DNA of 34,163 bases from an uncultured Bacteroidales bacterium. Lineage in GTDB: Bacteria > Bacteroidota > Bacteroidia > Bacteroidales > WCHB1-69. The position numbers and the translations under genes were made by a program. Shown one piece after another: positions 10,923-18,972 of the stretch (positions are counted from its first letter, which is position 1; each line of letters begins with the position of its first letter). The stretch lies in assembly GCA_900316305.1 (NCBI GenBank), contig ONCM01000030.1, positions 1 through 34,163 on the forward strand. Direction: 5' to 3'. Below the pieces are notes generated by a model. The model was given only the letters and a program-made list of their open reading frames with translations, made no database searches and was not told where the DNA came from.

Positions 10923-12350
10923 TTATTCTTGTTTTTTGGGTTTCTTCTTTACCAGCTCTTTCATGTGGCCCCAGTTGAAGACCAGTCCAGCGGTGGCCGT
11001 CAGACGGGAGCAGTTTCGATAATTGAGGGCCGAGATGAGGTTCTGGGTTCCGAAATAGATGTTCAGGTAGCCCAAATTGAAGCCGAGACCGATGCCGAGG
11101 TTGTCGAACGAGCGTCGTTGCATGGTGTAGGCCACGCATACGTCAATCATGTTGAAGAAGCAACCGTCATAGGCGATGGTCAGGGAAGGTTGCACATAGT
11201 GGCTGGCGAAACGGAGCTGTGCGGCCGCGCTGACCCGTTGACCTTTGGCAAACTCATAGTCAGCCTGTAACGCCACACGTGCCGGAATGGGAGCGACATA
11301 GCCGTCCGTTGCGTGCACGTCCAACGGGAAATAGTAGGCCAGCGTATCCAAAAGCTCTTGGGCGTTGCCGCCGTCAATCAGAACTTGGAGTTCCTCTTCG
11401 GTCAGGCCCGAGAAAACCAACGATCCGTCATTGTAGTAAGGCCCGGCATCATTCAGCTGACTGGTCATTTCCGTGGCGGAAGATTTCCAGAAGATAAAGC
11501 CTAAATCCATGGCGCTGAACGAAAGGTTGAGCTCAGGAATCGGTCGGTAGGAAAGACCCAGATCGATTCCGAATCCCGGATTCTTGAACAGGTTGGCTGT
11601 GATGGCTTTTGCATTCATGTCCGTCTCGAAGGAAAAGCCGTGCTCGCGGTCGAAGGTCATGGAGAAGGGGACGATGGCGGCGGCTTTGATTAGTGCGTCG
11701 TACTGCATGGTGAGCTCGTAGCTGTCAGGATCGGTGTAGAGTAGGGCAGAGAGCCTTTCGGTGCGGAGGTTGGCCAGTCCCATCAACAATTTTGGACGGA
11801 CGCCCCACGACCACTCTTCGTTGACCTCGTGACGGAAGCTGATGCCCAATTCCTGGTAAGCATTGATGTTCGCGCACAGGTTGATGTTGGCCGGATCGTC
11901 CACGTAGGCCATATTGCCCAGAACCGGAAGTCCGAACAGGTCTTTGGAGTAACGGATATCCCCGTTGATCCGCAGCCGGTGGTCCATCGTGATGAAGAAC
12001 TTCTTGCCGGCGCGGAACCCGAATCCCCACAATTCCATAGAGGCGTTGAAACCCAATAAGTTGTTTTTAGACAGCTTGTTGACAAACTTGTTGGCGGTGA
12101 TGGTGACAGGATAGCCATCAGCGTTTGTCTCAAAGAGGTTGTTGTAGCGGATGGGACCGAAGTTGAAACCGACGTGAATCTGTCCGGTTGGAAGACTGAC
12201 ATAGCCATCATAAATGGTGGAACAGGAGGGATTGTCGAAATTCTGAAAAGGGTTGATCTGCATGAAGCTGGTAATGTCCGGCGTTTGTCCTTTTGCCGTG
12301 AATCCAATACCTAAACCAATGATTATCAATAAGGTAAAAAATCTTCTCAT
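10923..12350 (-). CDS. DUF5723 family outer-membrane beta-barrel protein
   Basis: 475 residues. The signal peptide MRRFFTLLIIIGLGIGFTAKG is followed by QTPDITSFMQINPFQNFDNP, a start typical of DUF5723 proteins. Alternating hydrophobic and polar strands rich in Tyr, Phe and Asn follow, with patterns such as GFRAGKKFFITMDHRLRING and LSYRPIPELNLSFSAMDLGF, so a membrane barrel of the FadL/PorP-like class is likely. The C-terminus has RSFDNLGIGLGFNLGYLNIY and then VFNWGHMKELVKKKPKKQE. Function unknown; DUF5723 proteins are predicted barrel proteins of Bacteroidota. It starts 12 bases after the upstream lipoprotein gene, so the pair is one transcript and may form an outer-membrane barrel plus lipoprotein partner. 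Confidence 0.85.
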   Translation of the reverse strand: MRRFFTLLIIIGLGIGFTAKGQTPDITSFMQINPFQNFDNPSCSTIYDGYVSLPTGQIHVGFNFGPIRYNNLFETNADGYPVTITANKFVNKLSKNNLLGFNASMELWGFGFRAGKKFFITMDHRLRINGDIRYSKDLFGLPVLGNMAYVDDPANINLCANINAYQELGISFRHEVNEEWSWGVRPKLLMGLANLRTERLSALLYTDPDSYELTMQYDALIKAAAIVPFSMTFDREHGFSFETDMNAKAITANLFKNPGFGIDLGLSYRPIPELNLSFSAMDLGFIFWKSSATEMTSQLNDAGPYYNDGSLVFSGLTEEELQVLIDGGNAQELLDTLAYYFPLDVHATDGYVAPIPARVALQADYEFAKGQRVSAAAQLRFASHYVQPSLTIAYDGCFFNMIDVCVAYTMQRRSFDNLGIGLGFNLGYLNIYFGTQNLISALNYRNCSRLTATAGLVFNWGHMKELVKKKPKKQE

Positions 12351-12362
12351 AGCGGTGGTTTT

Positions 12363-13928
12363 TTAGTTATTGATACTGACTAAACTGTTTACATCCATAT
12401 TGAAGCGGGCACCAAGCTCCACGCGTAATTTCTGGTCAGCGCAGATGGCGGCCGGTTTGCCTTCCGTGTCGAGCATCGCCCTCACGATGATTTTATCGCA
12501 GTTGAGCAGCCGTTGCACCTCCTCCAGATTGTCTTTTTCGACATAGAGCTCTGTCAGCCGTTCCACGCCATTCACGGCGCAGAGTACCGGCTGGTATTGG
12601 GTAAAGAGACTGTCTTTGACGGTATGGGTCTGTGAATCATAGAAGTAGGCTTGTGCGGCGAAGGTCAGCGGAAGTCCGTTGTGGATGCCGAGTCGCAGCA
12701 GGATGTTGGAGAAGCCGTTCACGTCGGGGATTTCGATGTGGCCCATATCGAGGGTGTCGCAGAAGGTCAGGTGGTCAACTCGCATTTTGATCGGCAGGGT
12801 AACCTTGAAGCGCATCTGGATGATCTGATCCTCGTTGATGACCAGTATAGGACCGGCCATACCGCTGGTGTTGACGGCGGCCTCACCGCTGAGATTGAAG
12901 GATTGGATATTCGGAGTGATCGTGATGTGGGAGGCGATGGGGAACGGTACATCGGTGTAAGTTCCCGTGTTGGCCGGCAGCCACACGGTGGTCGGAGTGC
13001 TGGCGAGCAGTGAGGAAGTGATGCCGGGACCGTTCAGGGAGGCTTCGTTTAGATCGACCTTCGCATCCACAGGGAAGGTGTTCATGATCTCCAATGCAAT
13101 GATGGGATCCAAAATTTCGATGGAGCCTGCAAGATGTTCGGCGAGGTATTCGAGGTTGAGATTCGTGTTTAAATCCAACGGCAACTCTATAGTGGCGAAT
13201 TTTCCCCTGATCTCATGGAAACCGATGTTTTGGAGACTGGCATCGTAGTTGAAGACGAGCTGCTCGGGGAGCGGGGATCCGTCGGAGGTGTAAGCCACCT
13301 CAAAGGAGATTTCGATGGAGTTGTTCGTGGGCGTGAGGATGTAATTGGCGATGTTGAGGGACAGTTCGTAATGGCCACCCGTGGAGACTGCCTCCAAATG
13401 GAACGGCAGGCCGTCGCCCGAGTGCAATTGGGGACAGCCGACGGTCACGCTGACCTCGTGGGTGAGGTTGTAGTCGATGCTCAAGGAGAGCAATCCGGAC
13501 TTCAGCGTGGCGCTTGACACCAGAACCTCATCATCAGGGAACGAAACTTCGATCGTGTCCTTGTAAAGCGACAGATTCGTGCCCTCGCTGATGGGCAACT
13601 CGAAGGTCGGGAACGTCAGTCCGCCCGAAAAATGGACTTCCTCCAGAAGATCGTTCATAAACTTGGACGCTGACAGCAGCGAATCTTTAGAAAACGAATA
13701 CTCGATCTGCAGCACACCGTCCTCTCCCGTGGTCAGGTGGTCGGGAGTGTCGGTCATCGCCAGAATATCGCCGATGGTATAGGAGGCGTTCACCAACGGA
13801 ATGCCCCAAGTTCCCTCCGCGTCGATGGATTCGAGCTGTGAGAAATCGAAATTGTGTTTGTCAAAACAGGCCGTCAGCAGCGCCGCCGACAGCAATAAGG
13901 CTATAATTATTTTATTGTTCTTCATCAT
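12363..13928 (-). CDS. Large surface or periplasmic lipoprotein of unknown function
   Basis: 521 residues from ATG 13928. A further in-frame ATG 15 bases upstream would fall in the promoter, so the MMKNNKIIIALLLSAALLTAC start is preferred. The lipobox is LTAC, with Cys at about residue 21. The mature protein is all-beta in appearance and built of repeated sandwich-like segments, for example a strand pattern around FPTFELPISEGTNLSLYKDT and later FPIASHITITPNIQSFNLSG. I do not recognise a named domain. It is the first gene of the pair with the DUF5723 barrel and has its own TATCTTTG promoter. It is probably a cell-envelope partner of the barrel. Confidence 0.8.
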   Translation of the reverse strand: MMKNNKIIIALLLSAALLTACFDKHNFDFSQLESIDAEGTWGIPLVNASYTIGDILAMTDTPDHLTTGEDGVLQIEYSFSKDSLLSASKFMNDLLEEVHFSGGLTFPTFELPISEGTNLSLYKDTIEVSFPDDEVLVSSATLKSGLLSLSIDYNLTHEVSVTVGCPQLHSGDGLPFHLEAVSTGGHYELSLNIANYILTPTNNSIEISFEVAYTSDGSPLPEQLVFNYDASLQNIGFHEIRGKFATIELPLDLNTNLNLEYLAEHLAGSIEILDPIIALEIMNTFPVDAKVDLNEASLNGPGITSSLLASTPTTVWLPANTGTYTDVPFPIASHITITPNIQSFNLSGEAAVNTSGMAGPILVINEDQIIQMRFKVTLPIKMRVDHLTFCDTLDMGHIEIPDVNGFSNILLRLGIHNGLPLTFAAQAYFYDSQTHTVKDSLFTQYQPVLCAVNGVERLTELYVEKDNLEEVQRLLNCDKIIVRAMLDTEGKPAAICADQKLRVELGARFNMDVNSLVSINN

Positions 13929-13932
13929 GCGG

Positions 13933-13963
13933 CAAAGATACAAAAAAATAATGTAGAATGAAA
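13933..13963 (-). promoter_or_regulatory. Promoter TTTC-N19-TATCTTTG of the lipoprotein/DUF5723 pair
   Basis: Read on the reverse strand, TATCTTTG (13940-13933) is an exact -7 box, with TTTC (13963-13960) 19 bp upstream, one mismatch from TTTG. The ATG at 13928 begins only 4 bases after the box, so the transcript would begin at or next to the start codon. Confidence 0.65.
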
Positions 13964-13998: not shown

Positions 13999-14029
13999 AC
14001 TGCTAACTACTAACTACTAACTGCTAACT
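13999..14029 (-). repeat. Heptamer array ACTRCTA, second exact copy of the 31-bp string
   Basis: Identical over 31 bp to 6224-6254. On the reverse strand it begins at the last base of the TAA stop of the gene at 14029-16098. Confidence 0.85.
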
Positions 14030-16098
14030 TATTTCACCAGCGTCACCGTCCCCGTCTTTTCCATCACCGTGCCGTCGGGGAGCTTGTAGTTGAGGTGCCA
14101 GACATAGACGTTCATCGGGGCCACCACGCCGTTGATGCGGCCGTTCCAGCCCTCCTGGGGATTGGTGGTCAGGAAGATGCACTCGCCGGTGCGCGTGAAA
14201 ATCGTGAAACAGTAACCGTCCAAGGAGACGAAGGAGTTGACTGGACGGAAGACATTATTGTTGGCGCCCAATGGACGGAAGGCATTCGGAATGTACATGG
14301 TCGGCGGCTGCGTGAGCGTAATCTGGTTGGAGTAGCTGATGGCGGGCTCGCCGAAGGTGTTCGGACCCTCTTGCGCCTCAATGTAGTAGTAGAACTTAGA
14401 GCCCGACTCGTACATGGAGGAGATGTCGTCGCTGTAGCTGTTCATAACCGTGGGCATCGGATCCCCGACCGTATTGAAAAGTTCCTCGCTCTCCACCCGG
14501 CGCATAACGAAATAGTGCTCAACACCGCCGGCCCAGCTGTCGTATCCGTGCCACGAGAGGATGTTGTTCTGGGCGTTGTTCTCACCCTGCAGCAGAATGT
14601 TGTGCGAGACGTTCGAATAACCGACCTCCGTGCCGCAACTGTTCACGACGAACGCGCGGTAGTAGTACATCCGCTTGGCGAATTCCGCCGTGCTGTCGTT
14701 GAAAATGTATTCGGAGGAGGCGGGGTTGAAGGTCCTCGTCCGGAAATTTTCGAAATCGACACCGTTCTCACTGCGCTGGAGCGTGATGGTGTTGAACGGC
14801 AACGTGTCGCCGCTGGTCAGCACACTGACTTGCACGAAACCGTTGTCAATAACCGACACGGAACGGATGTAGGTGAAGTCCTGCGACTCTTCGGCGGTGA
14901 TGTTGATGGTGACGCGGTTGGAACTGGCCATGATGGTTCCGCCATTGTTGACCACGCGCACGTAGGCGATGTATTCGTGGTTAAGATTCAGATTCTCAAC
15001 AAGGAAGTTGGTGCCCGTGGTATTCCCGACGGTCTGCCAACTCAGCCCCTGGTCGCCGCTGAGCAACACCTCGAAGTGGTCGATGCCGTCAATCAGGTTG
15101 GCGTAAGTGGTCCATTGCAGGCTGACGGCCCGATGGCAGGCATCCGTATTGTTGACACGCAGTCCCATATTGCGCTGCGGATCATTGGTGAGCGCGGAGA
15201 CGTTGCCGCAAGAGTCCATGACGGCGATACGGTAGTCGCGCGAGTCGAACATGGGGTCAATGACAGGGTCAATCCAGGTGGTTTGCCCATAGATGGTGTC
15301 CAACGGGATAGTGCCGTAGGGGTTGAGGTAGTAGATGATGAAGGCCTGCATGTAGGGGTCGGGCGCGTGGAATCCTAACATCACCTCGTTGTTCGGGGTG
15401 ACCGTCACGCTGTCCAAAACCGGAGGGTTCGGACTGGTACTGTCCACCAGATGTGCGGAAGCAATGGTGGTCATAAACGGACACTGCTCATTCACGCCGT
15501 AGATGTTGGTGATACTGACCTGATAGGAGATGATGTTGTCACAGACATCGGAGGTGTCCGTGTAGGTTAGCTGGGTGTTGGGCACGGAAGCGAACGGCTG
15601 TGGCGGGAAATCCGCCTCGAAAGCGCGCTTCTTGTAAATATCAAAGGTGTTGCCCCAGGACGCATCCATGGTGCTGCTGGGAGATTCCCACTGAAGGAAA
15701 GCCATCGTGTTGTTGGATGACGGCGTGACAGTCAGACTGATGGACTGGATAGTGTCAGAATAGTACTGGTTCCCGTTCGAGTCCACGGCAATGATGTAGC
15801 AGTAGTATTCGCTGGCCACCGGGATGTTGTTGATGTCCTTCGAACCGTAATCGCAGAGGTTATAGGTTTGGGTGGCACTGGTGTAGCCAAACAGACTATC
15901 GCAGAGGATGCCGTTGATATAGAAGTAGTAAACTTTGAAATGACTGCAGTCGTTGGTGTTGCTCCAAGCCATTTTGATGCGCTGGTTGTTGTTCATCAGC
16001 TTGAGACACTGCATCTTGGGCGGCTGGTAAGCAAAACAGCTGATGACGACGGCCATCAGCGAGAACGTAAGAAGTATATGTTTTTTCAGACTGCTCAT
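14029..16098 (-). CDS. Secreted fibronectin-like protein with T9SS type B (gliding-motility-type) sorting domain
   Basis: 689 residues. The signal peptide (about 1-24, HILLTFSLMAVVISCFAYQP) is followed by several fibronectin-III-like beta-sandwich segments. They are marked by Trp/Tyr pairs such as 'VSLQWTTYANLIDGIDHFEV' and 'NHEYIAYVRVVNNGG', and by 'YYCYIIAVDSNGNQYYSDTI' near the front. The last 90 or so residues match the gliding-motility-associated C-terminal domain (CHU_C, TIGR04131): TMYIPNAFRPLGANNNVFRP, a central FTIFTRTGE, GWNGRING and PMNVYVWHLNYKLPDG. The domain directs export by the type IX secretion system and attachment to the cell surface. Its start overlaps the stop of the M16-like gene by 4 bases (ATGA), making it the last gene of the sigma-factor operon and a likely output. 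Confidence 0.9.
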   Translation of the reverse strand: MSSLKKHILLTFSLMAVVISCFAYQPPKMQCLKLMNNNQRIKMAWSNTNDCSHFKVYYFYINGILCDSLFGYTSATQTYNLCDYGSKDINNIPVASEYYCYIIAVDSNGNQYYSDTIQSISLTVTPSSNNTMAFLQWESPSSTMDASWGNTFDIYKKRAFEADFPPQPFASVPNTQLTYTDTSDVCDNIISYQVSITNIYGVNEQCPFMTTIASAHLVDSTSPNPPVLDSVTVTPNNEVMLGFHAPDPYMQAFIIYYLNPYGTIPLDTIYGQTTWIDPVIDPMFDSRDYRIAVMDSCGNVSALTNDPQRNMGLRVNNTDACHRAVSLQWTTYANLIDGIDHFEVLLSGDQGLSWQTVGNTTGTNFLVENLNLNHEYIAYVRVVNNGGTIMASSNRVTINITAEESQDFTYIRSVSVIDNGFVQVSVLTSGDTLPFNTITLQRSENGVDFENFRTRTFNPASSEYIFNDSTAEFAKRMYYYRAFVVNSCGTEVGYSNVSHNILLQGENNAQNNILSWHGYDSWAGGVEHYFVMRRVESEELFNTVGDPMPTVMNSYSDDISSMYESGSKFYYYIEAQEGPNTFGEPAISYSNQITLTQPPTMYIPNAFRPLGANNNVFRPVNSFVSLDGYCFTIFTRTGECIFLTTNPQEGWNGRINGVVAPMNVYVWHLNYKLPDGTVMEKTGTVTLVK

Positions 16099-17390
16099 TT
16101 TTCTGCCAAATAACGTCCAACGACAATATTAGTGAATTTATTGTGTTCAAAGTGCTTTTTTGCTAAAAATAAAATATCATCTGGTGTAACGTTCTTGATT
16201 TCAGAGAAATAGCGTTGCATTTCGGACTCGTCCAAACCGAAACGGTACCAGTAGGCAAACTTCTGCATGGCGTTTACCGTGGTATCGACGGCACGCAGCA
16301 AAATACCGGCCATGTAGTTCTTCACCATGTTGAGTTCATCCTCGGTAACCGGCTCTTCCTGAAGCCGTTGCAGTTCTTCGTAACAGGAGTCCAGCGCTTC
16401 CTGCGTCTGGTCGGCGTTCACATCACTGTTGATGGTGAAGACGGACTGGCTTCCGAAAAAGGTGTTGGCGGAGGAGACTCCGTAGGTCAGCCCTTGTCGC
16501 TCACGCAGGTTCTGCATCAGACGGGAACTGAAATAGCCGCCCGTCAGGGTGTTCAGTACGGAGAATTTGGTGCGCTCGGGATCATTGTACCCGATGGAGT
16601 TGCAGAAGAGAACGATGGAGGACTGCAGACAGTCGGGCATCGGGTCGTAAATGAGGTCCCGATGCGCAGGCGCGGGAATGTGAGGAATGTCAGAGCTGCG
16701 AACCCCGTGCGGCACCACAGACCAGATGTTCCGGATGTGTTGCTCTAAGGTCGGATCCAGATTACCGGTGACCATCAGGGTGACGTTCTCCGCACAGAAA
16801 CTCTCTTTGTGAAAATCCTGCAACTGCTTGACAGTGACTGCGTTTAAGGTATCAGTAGAAGCAAATTCCGACACGGCAGGGTAGTGGTCGCCCAACATTT
16901 CCTTCCACATAATCCGCCAGGAACGGTAGTCGGTTTTATGCTCATTGTAGGCTAAGTTTTTAATCTCTTTATCCTGCATAATCCTCAGATTATCAGGATT
17001 ATACTTGGGCGTGAGGATGCACTCTGCGATCAGGGGCAGAATGTCGGGAAGGTTGTTCTTCGGCATGGAGATCAATAGCTGCACATTCTCCATCCCGACG
17101 TTTACGGTGATATTTGTGCCGTAAAAGTCCAGCTTTTCCGACATCTCATGCGTGGAAAGTCGCGGGGAACTCTCCCGAAGCAGGGTGTAGGCGAAATTGC
17201 AGACATGTTTCGCTGGTTGGTATAACGAACCAGTCCGCACTTGCACGAGCAGGTGGATCAGATCCAGGTTGGGATTGTCGAAATAGAAGATGGGGATGCC
17301 GTTGTTGAGCAGCTCTTTCCGCGGCGTGGGCAGCGAAAAGGACTCGATAGGGCGGATGGTGGGCGGTATGGCTCGGTTGATTGGCGTCAT
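16095..17390 (-). CDS. M16 family peptidase homologue lacking the zinc motif
   Basis: 431 residues, the usual size for a two-domain M16B protein. The N-terminal domain has IPIFYFDNPNLDLIHLLVQV, but where HxxEH is expected it reads HVCNF (62-66), so the catalytic Glu and second His are missing and no zinc site is visible. The C-terminal domain keeps the R/Y substrate-binding motif RERQGLTYG (296-304). This is the pattern of the non-catalytic alpha-type partner in M16B heterodimers such as mitochondrial MPP-alpha and its bacterial relatives. There is no signal peptide, so it is cytoplasmic as read. Its ATG overlaps the preceding stop in TAATG, and its own stop overlaps the next start, so translation is coupled on both sides. 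A catalytic partner gene is not in the window. Confidence 0.88.
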   Translation of the reverse strand: MTPINRAIPPTIRPIESFSLPTPRKELLNNGIPIFYFDNPNLDLIHLLVQVRTGSLYQPAKHVCNFAYTLLRESSPRLSTHEMSEKLDFYGTNITVNVGMENVQLLISMPKNNLPDILPLIAECILTPKYNPDNLRIMQDKEIKNLAYNEHKTDYRSWRIMWKEMLGDHYPAVSEFASTDTLNAVTVKQLQDFHKESFCAENVTLMVTGNLDPTLEQHIRNIWSVVPHGVRSSDIPHIPAPAHRDLIYDPMPDCLQSSIVLFCNSIGYNDPERTKFSVLNTLTGGYFSSRLMQNLRERQGLTYGVSSANTFFGSQSVFTINSDVNADQTQEALDSCYEELQRLQEEPVTEDELNMVKNYMAGILLRAVDTTVNAMQKFAYWYRFGLDESEMQRYFSEIKNVTPDDILFLAKKHFEHNKFTNIVVGRYLAEK

Positions 17391-18349
17391 TATGGTATTA
17401 GCAATATTTGTCCGCGACGTTGTTGATGATCGCCATTCCGGTCAACATATTTGATCATATAAACATAGACATCGCTGGGCAGGAAACTGCCGTGCAGGGT
17501 GCCGTCCCAGCCGATGCGTATGTCGGTGGTGGAGAAAATCAGTTCGCCGTTGCGGTTTAATATGTACATGGCAAAATGTTGCGGTTCGAAGTTGGCGGTC
17601 ACGTAGAAAATGTCGTTCAGACCGTCGCCGTTGGGCGTGAAGGCAGAAGGAATATAGAACTCTTCGGTTGTTGCCTCGGGTTCCTCCGGGGAATACTCGG
17701 ATTTCGCAACCTCTTCGCCGTCACCCGTGACCGTGGTCTCACTGACAGAGGACTTGTCCTTGTTGGAGGGTGAACAGGAATAGACGGTTTTGATTTGCTG
17801 AACTTCTTGTATGGGCGTTGAATTTTTTGGGGAAACCTTGATGGTTTCGTAAGAGAGCTCGTTATTGTCTTGAGCGGGGGTGTTTGTCGGTGTGACGGCT
17901 GGATGGCGCTTTTCAATGATAGAGGCCATGGTGGAACCTTCGTGTGCGGCCGCCTCTGTGGTGGTGGCTACGGTAGGTTTCGTCTCGGGAGTGGCGGAAG
18001 GCGTTGTCGTAGGCTTCTGGGCGGAAGTGCTCGGAGAAGTTGCGATGGTGGCTACCGATTGGTTTTCAGTCGGTTGCGGGGTGGCAATCTCCGTGGCGGG
18101 TGTCGCGGATTGTGCCTGATCGGCAGGCTGTTGACGCAAAGTCTTCACCAGTATGGGAACGGTAATCAAGACGGCGGCGATGCCGGCAACCATGGCGGCT
18201 CGGCCTTTCGGCGTGAGTCCGGGCTTGCGGCCGAACTTCTGCACGTATCGCTTGTCGTTCACGATGGAGGTCCATTCCTCCTCCGTGACGGGCACCTCCA
18301 TCCGGCGCAGCTCCTCTATCGGGTTGTTCATATTATCGGTTTTCTTCAT
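17390..18349 (-). CDS. Anti-sigma-like single-TM protein with a C-terminal T9SS type B-like domain
   Basis: 319 residues. Residues 1-49 are charged and cytoplasmic (NPIEELRRMEVPVTEEEWTS), like short anti-sigma N-domains, though no ZAS or FecR signature is clear. Residues 50-69 are one TM helix (RAAMVAGIAAVLITVPILVK). Residues 75-165 are a Thr/Pro/Ala/Ser-rich linker. Residues 231-319 are a gliding-motility-type C-terminal domain, with FYIPSAFTPNGDGLND (231-246), MYILNRNGELIFST, IGWDGT and PSDVYVYMIKYVD. There is no cleavable signal peptide, so the C-terminal domain should sit in the periplasm tethered to the inner membrane. It overlaps the sigma-factor gene by 17 bases, which supports an anti-sigma role. 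A start at residue 7 (18331) is equally possible. Confidence 0.85.
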   Translation of the reverse strand: MKKTDNMNNPIEELRRMEVPVTEEEWTSIVNDKRYVQKFGRKPGLTPKGRAAMVAGIAAVLITVPILVKTLRQQPADQAQSATPATEIATPQPTENQSVATIATSPSTSAQKPTTTPSATPETKPTVATTTEAAAHEGSTMASIIEKRHPAVTPTNTPAQDNNELSYETIKVSPKNSTPIQEVQQIKTVYSCSPSNKDKSSVSETTVTGDGEEVAKSEYSPEEPEATTEEFYIPSAFTPNGDGLNDIFYVTANFEPQHFAMYILNRNGELIFSTTDIRIGWDGTLHGSFLPSDVYVYMIKYVDRNGDHQQRRGQILLIP

Positions 18350-18887
18350 TCTTCCAGAATTTTTGAATACTGTTGCGCAAAGTCGCGCGGGCTCGTGAAA
18401 TCATCGTCCTGACATTGTTCTGGCTCTCCTGCATCATCTCCGCGATCTCCGCCTGGGGAATGTCGTCGATGACATACAAATTGAAGGCTGTCCGCGCCTT
18501 CTGGGGGAGATCGTTGATGAATCCTTGCAACACATCCATCGGGATGCCGTCATACTCATGTTCGACCGCCTCACCTAACTCCTGCTCGAAGTGACTCATC
18601 AGAATCGTGGGCTGCGTTTTCTTATGTCGCAGATAGTCAACCAATTTGTTGACGGTGATGCGATGCAGCCACCCGTCGAGCGAGTTGATATGGGTGTATT
18701 GCTCGAAATGCGTCAGGATAAAGATGAAGATGTCATGGAAGAGGTCCTCGGCTTCCTGGATGTCCTGAATGTAACGCAGGCAGGTACCCTTGACCATCGG
18801 TCCGTAGGTGTCATACAGCAGCTTCTGACTGTGCACGTCGCCTTTCTGACAACCGTCTATGATCTCTATCTCTTTTTCAGTCAGCAT
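18333..18887 (-). CDS. ECF-type RNA polymerase sigma factor
   Basis: 184 residues. Region 2 spans about residues 20-95: LLYDTYGPMVKGTCLRYIQD, then DIQEAEDLFHDIFIFILTHF and the DNA-melting segment SLDGWLHRITVNKLVDYLRH. Region 4 spans about 120-178, with LPQKARTAFNLYVIDDIPQA and the helix-turn-helix EIAEMMQESQNNVRTMISRA. The size and two-region layout are those of extracytoplasmic-function sigma factors. It heads a four-gene operon whose second gene is a membrane-bound, anti-sigma-like protein. Its target promoters are unknown, and no perfect TAnnTTTG box is seen in the 85-bp gap upstream, so it may transcribe its own operon. Confidence 0.93.
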   Translation of the reverse strand: MLTEKEIEIIDGCQKGDVHSQKLLYDTYGPMVKGTCLRYIQDIQEAEDLFHDIFIFILTHFEQYTHINSLDGWLHRITVNKLVDYLRHKKTQPTILMSHFEQELGEAVEHEYDGIPMDVLQGFINDLPQKARTAFNLYVIDDIPQAEIAEMMQESQNNVRTMISRARATLRNSIQKFWKNEENR

Positions 18888-18972
18888 TTGATTTCTACTA
18901 TTTCTAGACGAAATTCAAGGGAAATTATTACAAAAAAAATGAAGGAAAATGATGTTTTTTCTGTTTGGGATG

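Follow-up and report, generated by a model that had tools for sequence, protein, structure and literature searches.

Bacteroides thetaiotaomicron has dual membrane-spanning anti-sigma (Dma) proteins, which work with Das sigma factors (PMC13088901). As described there, a Dma protein has an N-terminal anti-sigma domain, one transmembrane (TM) helix, a long disordered tether, and an outer-membrane beta-barrel at its end, and it is encoded next to an ECF sigma gene. In Porphyromonas gingivalis, PorA is a CTD-bearing surface protein with a signal peptide that is thought to act through PorXY-SigP (PMC7712824). At the outer membrane, it is PorP/SprF-like barrels, not PorV, that collect type B sorting domains (PMC12618676; PMC9143113).

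We analyzed a 34,163-nucleotide stretch of DNA from an uncultured Bacteroidales bacterium (the window), which encodes a 319-amino-acid protein with some features of each of these systems (Table 1). Judging by the published layout, it shares the single helix, the tether, the adjacent ECF sigma gene, membership in the Bacteroidota, and probably the N-terminal domain with Dma proteins, but it ends in a T9SS type B sorting domain (CHU_C/TIGR04131) instead of a barrel (PMC13088901). Because the barrel is missing, we do not file it as a Dma protein, even though we think that it works like one. The proposed resemblance to PorA is that a CTD-bearing protein feeds an ECF-sigma pathway that controls the T9SS, but PorA is neither an anti-sigma factor nor anchored in the inner membrane (PMC7712824). 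Type B substrates carry the same family of sorting domain (TIGR04131), but the known ones are made with Sec signal peptides and end up on the surface or in the medium (PMC12618676; PMC9143113). The Dma-like layout was already known, and the new variation is the sorting domain in place of the barrel. In the open-licence PMC literature, as far as its text was available, we found no prior description of a CTD-tipped anti-sigma arrangement.

Table 1. Features of the conserved block in the window.
Feature	Position	Strand	Basis
ECF-type promoter of the operon, TGTAAT-N15-TCGTC, ending 19 bases ahead of the sigma start	18907..18932	-	conserved in the genus
ECF sigma factor, 184 aa	18333..18887	-	TIGR02937, 85.5 bits (cut-off 42.9)
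CTD-tipped protein, likely anti-sigma factor, 319 aa	17390..18349	-	ORF list, profile matches, and predicted fold; alternative start at 18331
Putative cytosolic anti-sigma domain, residues 1-49, motif P-V-x-E-x-x-W-x-x-I-x-x-D	18203..18349	-	invariant residues, profile match, and AlphaFold2 model of a relative
Transmembrane helix, residues 51-69, Lys/Arg ahead, N-in expected	18143..18199	-	hydropathy
Disordered S/T/P/A-rich tether, residues 70-230	17660..18142	-	composition; pLDDT
T9SS type B sorting domain, residues 231-319	17393..17659	-	TIGR04131 and PF13585 CHU_C scores; predicted fold
M16-family protein, YfmF-like, without the HxxEH zinc motif	16095..17390	-	PF05193, 104.4 bits; NF047422, 87.1 bits (below cut-off 285)
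Putative surface protein, fn3 region, signal-like N-terminus, divergent type B domain (14038-14292)	14029..16098	-	profile matches; kept in relatives

The protein and its neighbors in the genus

An initial annotation of the window had described a gene that overlaps the end of an ECF sigma gene and encodes a charged N-terminus, one TM segment, a tether, and a C-terminal type B domain. Open reading frames, hydropathy, and profile scores all agree with this description. The ATG at 18349 lies within the sigma ORF (18333-18887) and gives an overlap of 17 bases. Met7 (18331) is an invariant column in an alignment of 29 anti-sigma proteins from the genus and may be the true start, which would replace the overlap with a 1-base gap. 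About 50 residues stand ahead of the helix, and hydropathy finds no second hydrophobic segment. The TM segment resembles a signal anchor, and the proposed tethering in the inner membrane is supported.

The tether has 161 residues, of which 52% are S/T/P/A, and its ten-residue mean pLDDT in a structure prediction is 39-54 (residues 71-220). The sorting domain scores well above the curated cut-offs of both families (TIGR04131, 59.7 bits over residues 233-317 with a cut-off of 35; PF13585 CHU_C, 55.8 bits over 233-315 with a cut-off of 27). In a search of the whole genome with TIGR04131, the protein ranks first of 23 matches, at 62.5 bits (the runner-up has 61.8). No anti-sigma family in Pfam matched the protein. 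As for the sigma factor, it also has 85.5 bits against TIGR02985, under the cut-off of 126.4 for that family.

Among the matches listed, the N-terminal part was found in at least 31 of the 36 genomes of the genus. Two more (G011 and G025) have loci with the same layout, and the other three genomes (G008, G010, and G030) are 51-63% complete. A sigma gene lies directly ahead in all 33 genus loci that we examined (30 at first, including the window's, and three later), so homologues that occur without a sigma gene, which the initial annotation had asked about, are absent from this set. In the first 30 loci, the spacing of the two genes runs from a 50-base overlap to a 59-base gap, every protein has a single TM, and the sorting domain is in frame in all but one. 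(In that one, L042 from genome G017, it lies in another frame, which is either a sequencing error or a real break.) Given these counts, and the agreement of all three later loci, the comparison indicates that the arrangement is not chance. Within the 29-sequence alignment, conservation is found in the residues of the sorting domain and in the N-terminal motif, with Pro20 and Trp26 invariant, while the tether is variable.

The sigma, anti-sigma, M16, and cargo genes stay together in 23 of 23 wide genus loci (20/20 and then 3/3). The M16 protein, encoded between the anti-sigma and cargo genes, is a conserved peptidase relative that is apparently catalytically dead: we looked for HxxEH in the M16 proteins of 29 genus loci, and none has it (the copy in L005 is cut at 82 amino acids). 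The fourth gene had been taken for a real cargo with the same sorting domain. This is likely, but the case is weaker than was stated, as the domain is divergent and falls below both curated cut-offs (TIGR04131, 22.4 vs. 35 bits; CHU_C, 23.2 vs. 27 bits). The protein is present in all 23 wide relatives, with one copy cut by a contig end. After it, on the same strand, come a putative lipoprotein-like ORF of 526 amino acids (12363-13943) and a DUF5723 protein (10923-12350). Neither lies beside the block in any of 20 wide relatives; in 17 of these, the sequence extends at least 1.9 kb past the cargo gene. We therefore rejected a six-gene operon and consider the conserved block to be four genes.

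Sorting domains and barrels behind related sigma genes

Although the initial annotation treated the protein as a one-off, it belongs to a class that is seen behind related sigma genes across the order. We took the best sigma matches listed from 99 genomes of the order, which gave 90 loci and 84 downstream proteins (two loci from the window's genus, three without a downstream ORF, and one masked locus were left out). A loose pattern for the Trp motif ahead of a TM fits 73 of the 84. CHU_C matches 20 of them, TIGR04131 matches 19, and the barrel family OMP_b-brl_2 matches 36. By our own CTD profile, 19 proteins end in a CTD and another (L096, 31.9 bits) has a CTD with an extension, so about 20 of the 84 carry a type B sorting domain. 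The tethers of the 19 are 144-451 residues long. For the tree described below, 58 proteins were labelled as barrels by elimination, which is an upper figure: 36 have the support of the main barrel family in Pfam, and the end of the locus truncates some proteins. The other 6 tips include two from the window's genome (L131 and L132). (Two sister anti-sigma-like proteins, L113 with 251 amino acids and L136 with 196, have tips that are neither a clear barrel nor type B by our profile.) Within the order, then, CTD tips alternate mostly with outer-membrane barrels.

The two forms seem to share an N-terminal domain. Profiles of the N-termini of the CTD-tipped and barrel-tipped forms from the order match at E = 2.6e-16. 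For the profile from the window's genus, the match to the barrel-tipped form is weaker (E = 1.9e-5), but its score of 27.7 is above those of all 200 column shuffles (highest, 21.3). On a tree of the sigma factors, the two tips require 10 changes, and the starred branches force at least four for the CTD group. A caveat is that this tree of 93 rows was built with a quick method whose makers advise trusting its support less. Still, it suggests that barrels and CTDs have been exchanged repeatedly.

Across the phylum, we considered a sample of 30 loci (one of them from the window's genome). Most have a similar N-terminus by eye, which carries varied periplasmic parts or barrels, and one of the 30 (L161) is CTD-tipped. 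We also drew in reverse, from 80 GTDB loci listed for the CTD alone. A sigma gene lies within 250 bases upstream in four: L194 from the window's genus, L195 and L225 from other Bacteroidales, and L216 from the Flavobacteriales. By eye, all four are short CTD proteins with a TM. The N-terminal profile matched three of the four, with L194 at only 13.8 bits.

The window's genome has a second such pair (L180/L418, contig C37, at about 94.7-96.4 kb), in which the gene for a CTD-tipped TM protein comes after an ECF sigma gene. The protein has 40.3 bits against TIGR04131 (cut-off 35), and its N-terminus is closer to the order-wide type. This genome also encodes SprA and has three matches to the PorP/SprF family. 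We dropped the co-occurrence of SprA as a test of tip type: with SprA in 55 of 58 genomes, it could not tell the tips apart. (In our sample, the three genomes that lack SprA, G042, G093, and G122, have only barrel tips.)

Promoter boxes of the operon, cargo genes, and porU

A box of TG[CT]AAN and NCGT[CT] with a spacing of 15-16 precedes the sigma gene in 28 of 29 genus loci, with 7-21 bases between its end and the sigma start. L037 is the exception: there, the strict pattern has its only hit at a different site, 51 bases upstream, and the expected place is taken by TGCCAC-15-TCGTT. The three loci fetched last have the box as well. Because it is conserved across the genus, the operon is probably autoregulated. 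The box (TGYAA-N15/16-CGT[CT]) differs from the motif for SigP that was proposed in PMC4800418.

In the window's genome, the pattern TGYAAYN{14,15}TTCGTY occurs 15 times, as compared to 13 for a reversed control. TCGTT was admitted only after we had seen the cargo upstreams, so this choice is post hoc; most of the orthologue counts came later. (A search with TCGTC only was discarded, with 19 matches vs. 19 for its control.) The 15 occurrences include the sigma operon, three type B cargo genes on other contigs, and porU. The cargo boxes, which were found for 3 of the 17 cargo upstreams with a start found, are 23-40 bases from the start, and the porU box (L342, contig C23) is 36 bases from it. 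A further occurrence, on contig C30, lies 102 bases upstream of a fourth cargo gene and is missing in the 11 orthologues of that gene (L294-L304). Six other sigma places in this genome were among the matches listed (15 reported), and none is beside an occurrence of the pattern.

We then counted boxes before presumed orthologues of the cargo genes, which were picked by length and domain. For a cargo of 974 amino acids, the box is upstream in 16 of 18 genomes, its own included, and the other two have TGCCAC-15-TCGTT. For a cargo type of 773 amino acids, 5 of 11 presumed orthologues have the box, as do four more in another set of loci. Before porU (L342 and L385-L414), the strict pattern lies 36-42 bases from the start in 21 of 29 genomes of the genus, with another base ahead of CGTT in two of the 21.

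For the -10 element, operons mostly have TCGTC, and TCGTT prevails at the cargo and porU sites. Given this difference, another sigma factor may serve the cargo and porU sites. In all 22 comparisons made across 15 genomes, the operon and cargo promoters have the same third base of the -35 element (C or T), but we rejected this as independent evidence: it reflects one switch on the tree, and for porU it holds only in part.

What the sorting domain may do

Overall, comparison across genomes supports the layout, the pairing, the exchange of tips, and the conservation of the promoter. The 319-amino-acid protein is likely the anti-sigma factor for the product of the sigma gene directly ahead of it, as the initial annotation had proposed, because the pairing holds in 33 of 33 loci, the N-terminal profile is related to that of barrel-tipped proteins, and, in an AlphaFold2 model of a relative's pair, the N-terminus packs on the sigma factor. 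From this model, we infer that the N-terminus binds sigma. Since the tip alternates with a built-in barrel, the simplest interpretation is that it does the same job of contacting the outer membrane, with a barrel supplied in trans. So the protein would be a Dma-like anti-sigma factor that probably contacts the outer membrane via the T9SS.

Docking of the tip on the T9SS is plausible, though we set aside the partners suggested at first (PorV and PorU), because type B domains use PorP/SprF-like proteins (PMC12618676; PMC9143113). Nor do we favor the suggestion that the tip is a decoy, as its exchange with outer-membrane barrels argues for a stable contact rather than bait.

As a whole, we lean slightly towards the following explanation, in which the protein works like Dma with a borrowed barrel. 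The first 50 or so residues would hold sigma in the cytosol, and the single helix would anchor the protein in the inner membrane. The tether, whose roughly 160 residues could span the periplasm, would bring the sorting domain to the outer membrane, where it would dock with either the T9SS exit or a PorP/SprF-like shuttle barrel as its partner. If this docking changed (the T9SS empty or crowded, the tip lost or pulled, or a surface ligand brought by the co-encoded cargo), the effect would travel along the tether and free sigma. Sigma would then drive transcription of its own operon, and probably of porU and the genes for type B cargo as well. The feedback loop between the T9SS and sigma that was proposed earlier stays a suggestion: the operon's conserved promoter and the similar boxes before type B cargo genes and porU give a possible link in outline, with the direction of the signal, the docking partner, and the regulon inferred.

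We considered three other explanations. The protein could be an anti-sigma factor whose sorting-like Ig domain does not contact the T9SS and has been reused as a generic sensor or spacer in the periplasm. Ig-like folds are common, and many of the relatives from other orders, with a similar N-terminus by eye, have varied periplasmic parts that are neither barrel nor CTD. But this protein has the highest type B score of its genome, the residues conserved in the genus sit in the sorting domain as well as the N-terminal motif, and the alternation within the order is mostly with outer-membrane barrels, so we think that a generic domain is unlikely.

Somewhat less likely still is release by export. 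FlgM, the exported flagellar anti-sigma factor, also bears a signal for an export machine that is tied to its regulon, but it is soluble and exported whole, and its sequence and export machine are unrelated to those of our protein. Here, cleavage after the TM or in the tether would let the CTD half be secreted as cargo and would end the inhibition of sigma. The tip is indeed a sorting domain with a full score, and AxA follows the TM in 8 of 30 genus relatives. The other 22 lack AxA within the span tested, however, and the 40-58 or so residues ahead of the helix are unlike a signal peptide. Also, the barrel-tipped relatives would not be freed in this way.

Finally, it is improbable that the protein is a membrane-anchored T9SS cargo that merely sits behind a sigma gene: no Pfam anti-sigma family matched it and sigma binding is a prediction from a structure model, but against this reading stand the constant pairing, the relationship of its N-terminal profile to barrel-tipped proteins downstream of sigma genes, and the four sigma-linked loci, all short and with a TM by eye and three with the N-terminal profile, among 80 drawn regardless of sigma.

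If the protein is indeed a Dma-like anti-sigma factor, then a sigma-holding protein with a T9SS address tag is found repeatedly among related bacteria, and it may give cells a way to sense export. More speculatively, and with real doubt, CTD-tipped anti-sigma factors could be a widespread checkpoint for the T9SS. The tip would queue at the T9SS exit or a PorP/SprF-like barrel, the cell would read type B export directly, and the freed sigma would raise the production of type B cargo and of the sortase PorU. This would have evolved several times in the Bacteroidota, by exchanging the barrel for a secretion signal on the same chassis.

The wider question is how Bacteroidota keep track of their main surface-export machine. 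For PorA and PorXY-SigP in P. gingivalis, the authors expect that other factors mediate between the surface and the inner membrane (PMC7712824). If our explanation is correct, then other bacteria would have a mediator of this kind in one polypeptide that ties sigma to a T9SS signal. The Dma idea may then be more general, with contact to the outer membrane made either by a built-in barrel or by one borrowed through the T9SS.
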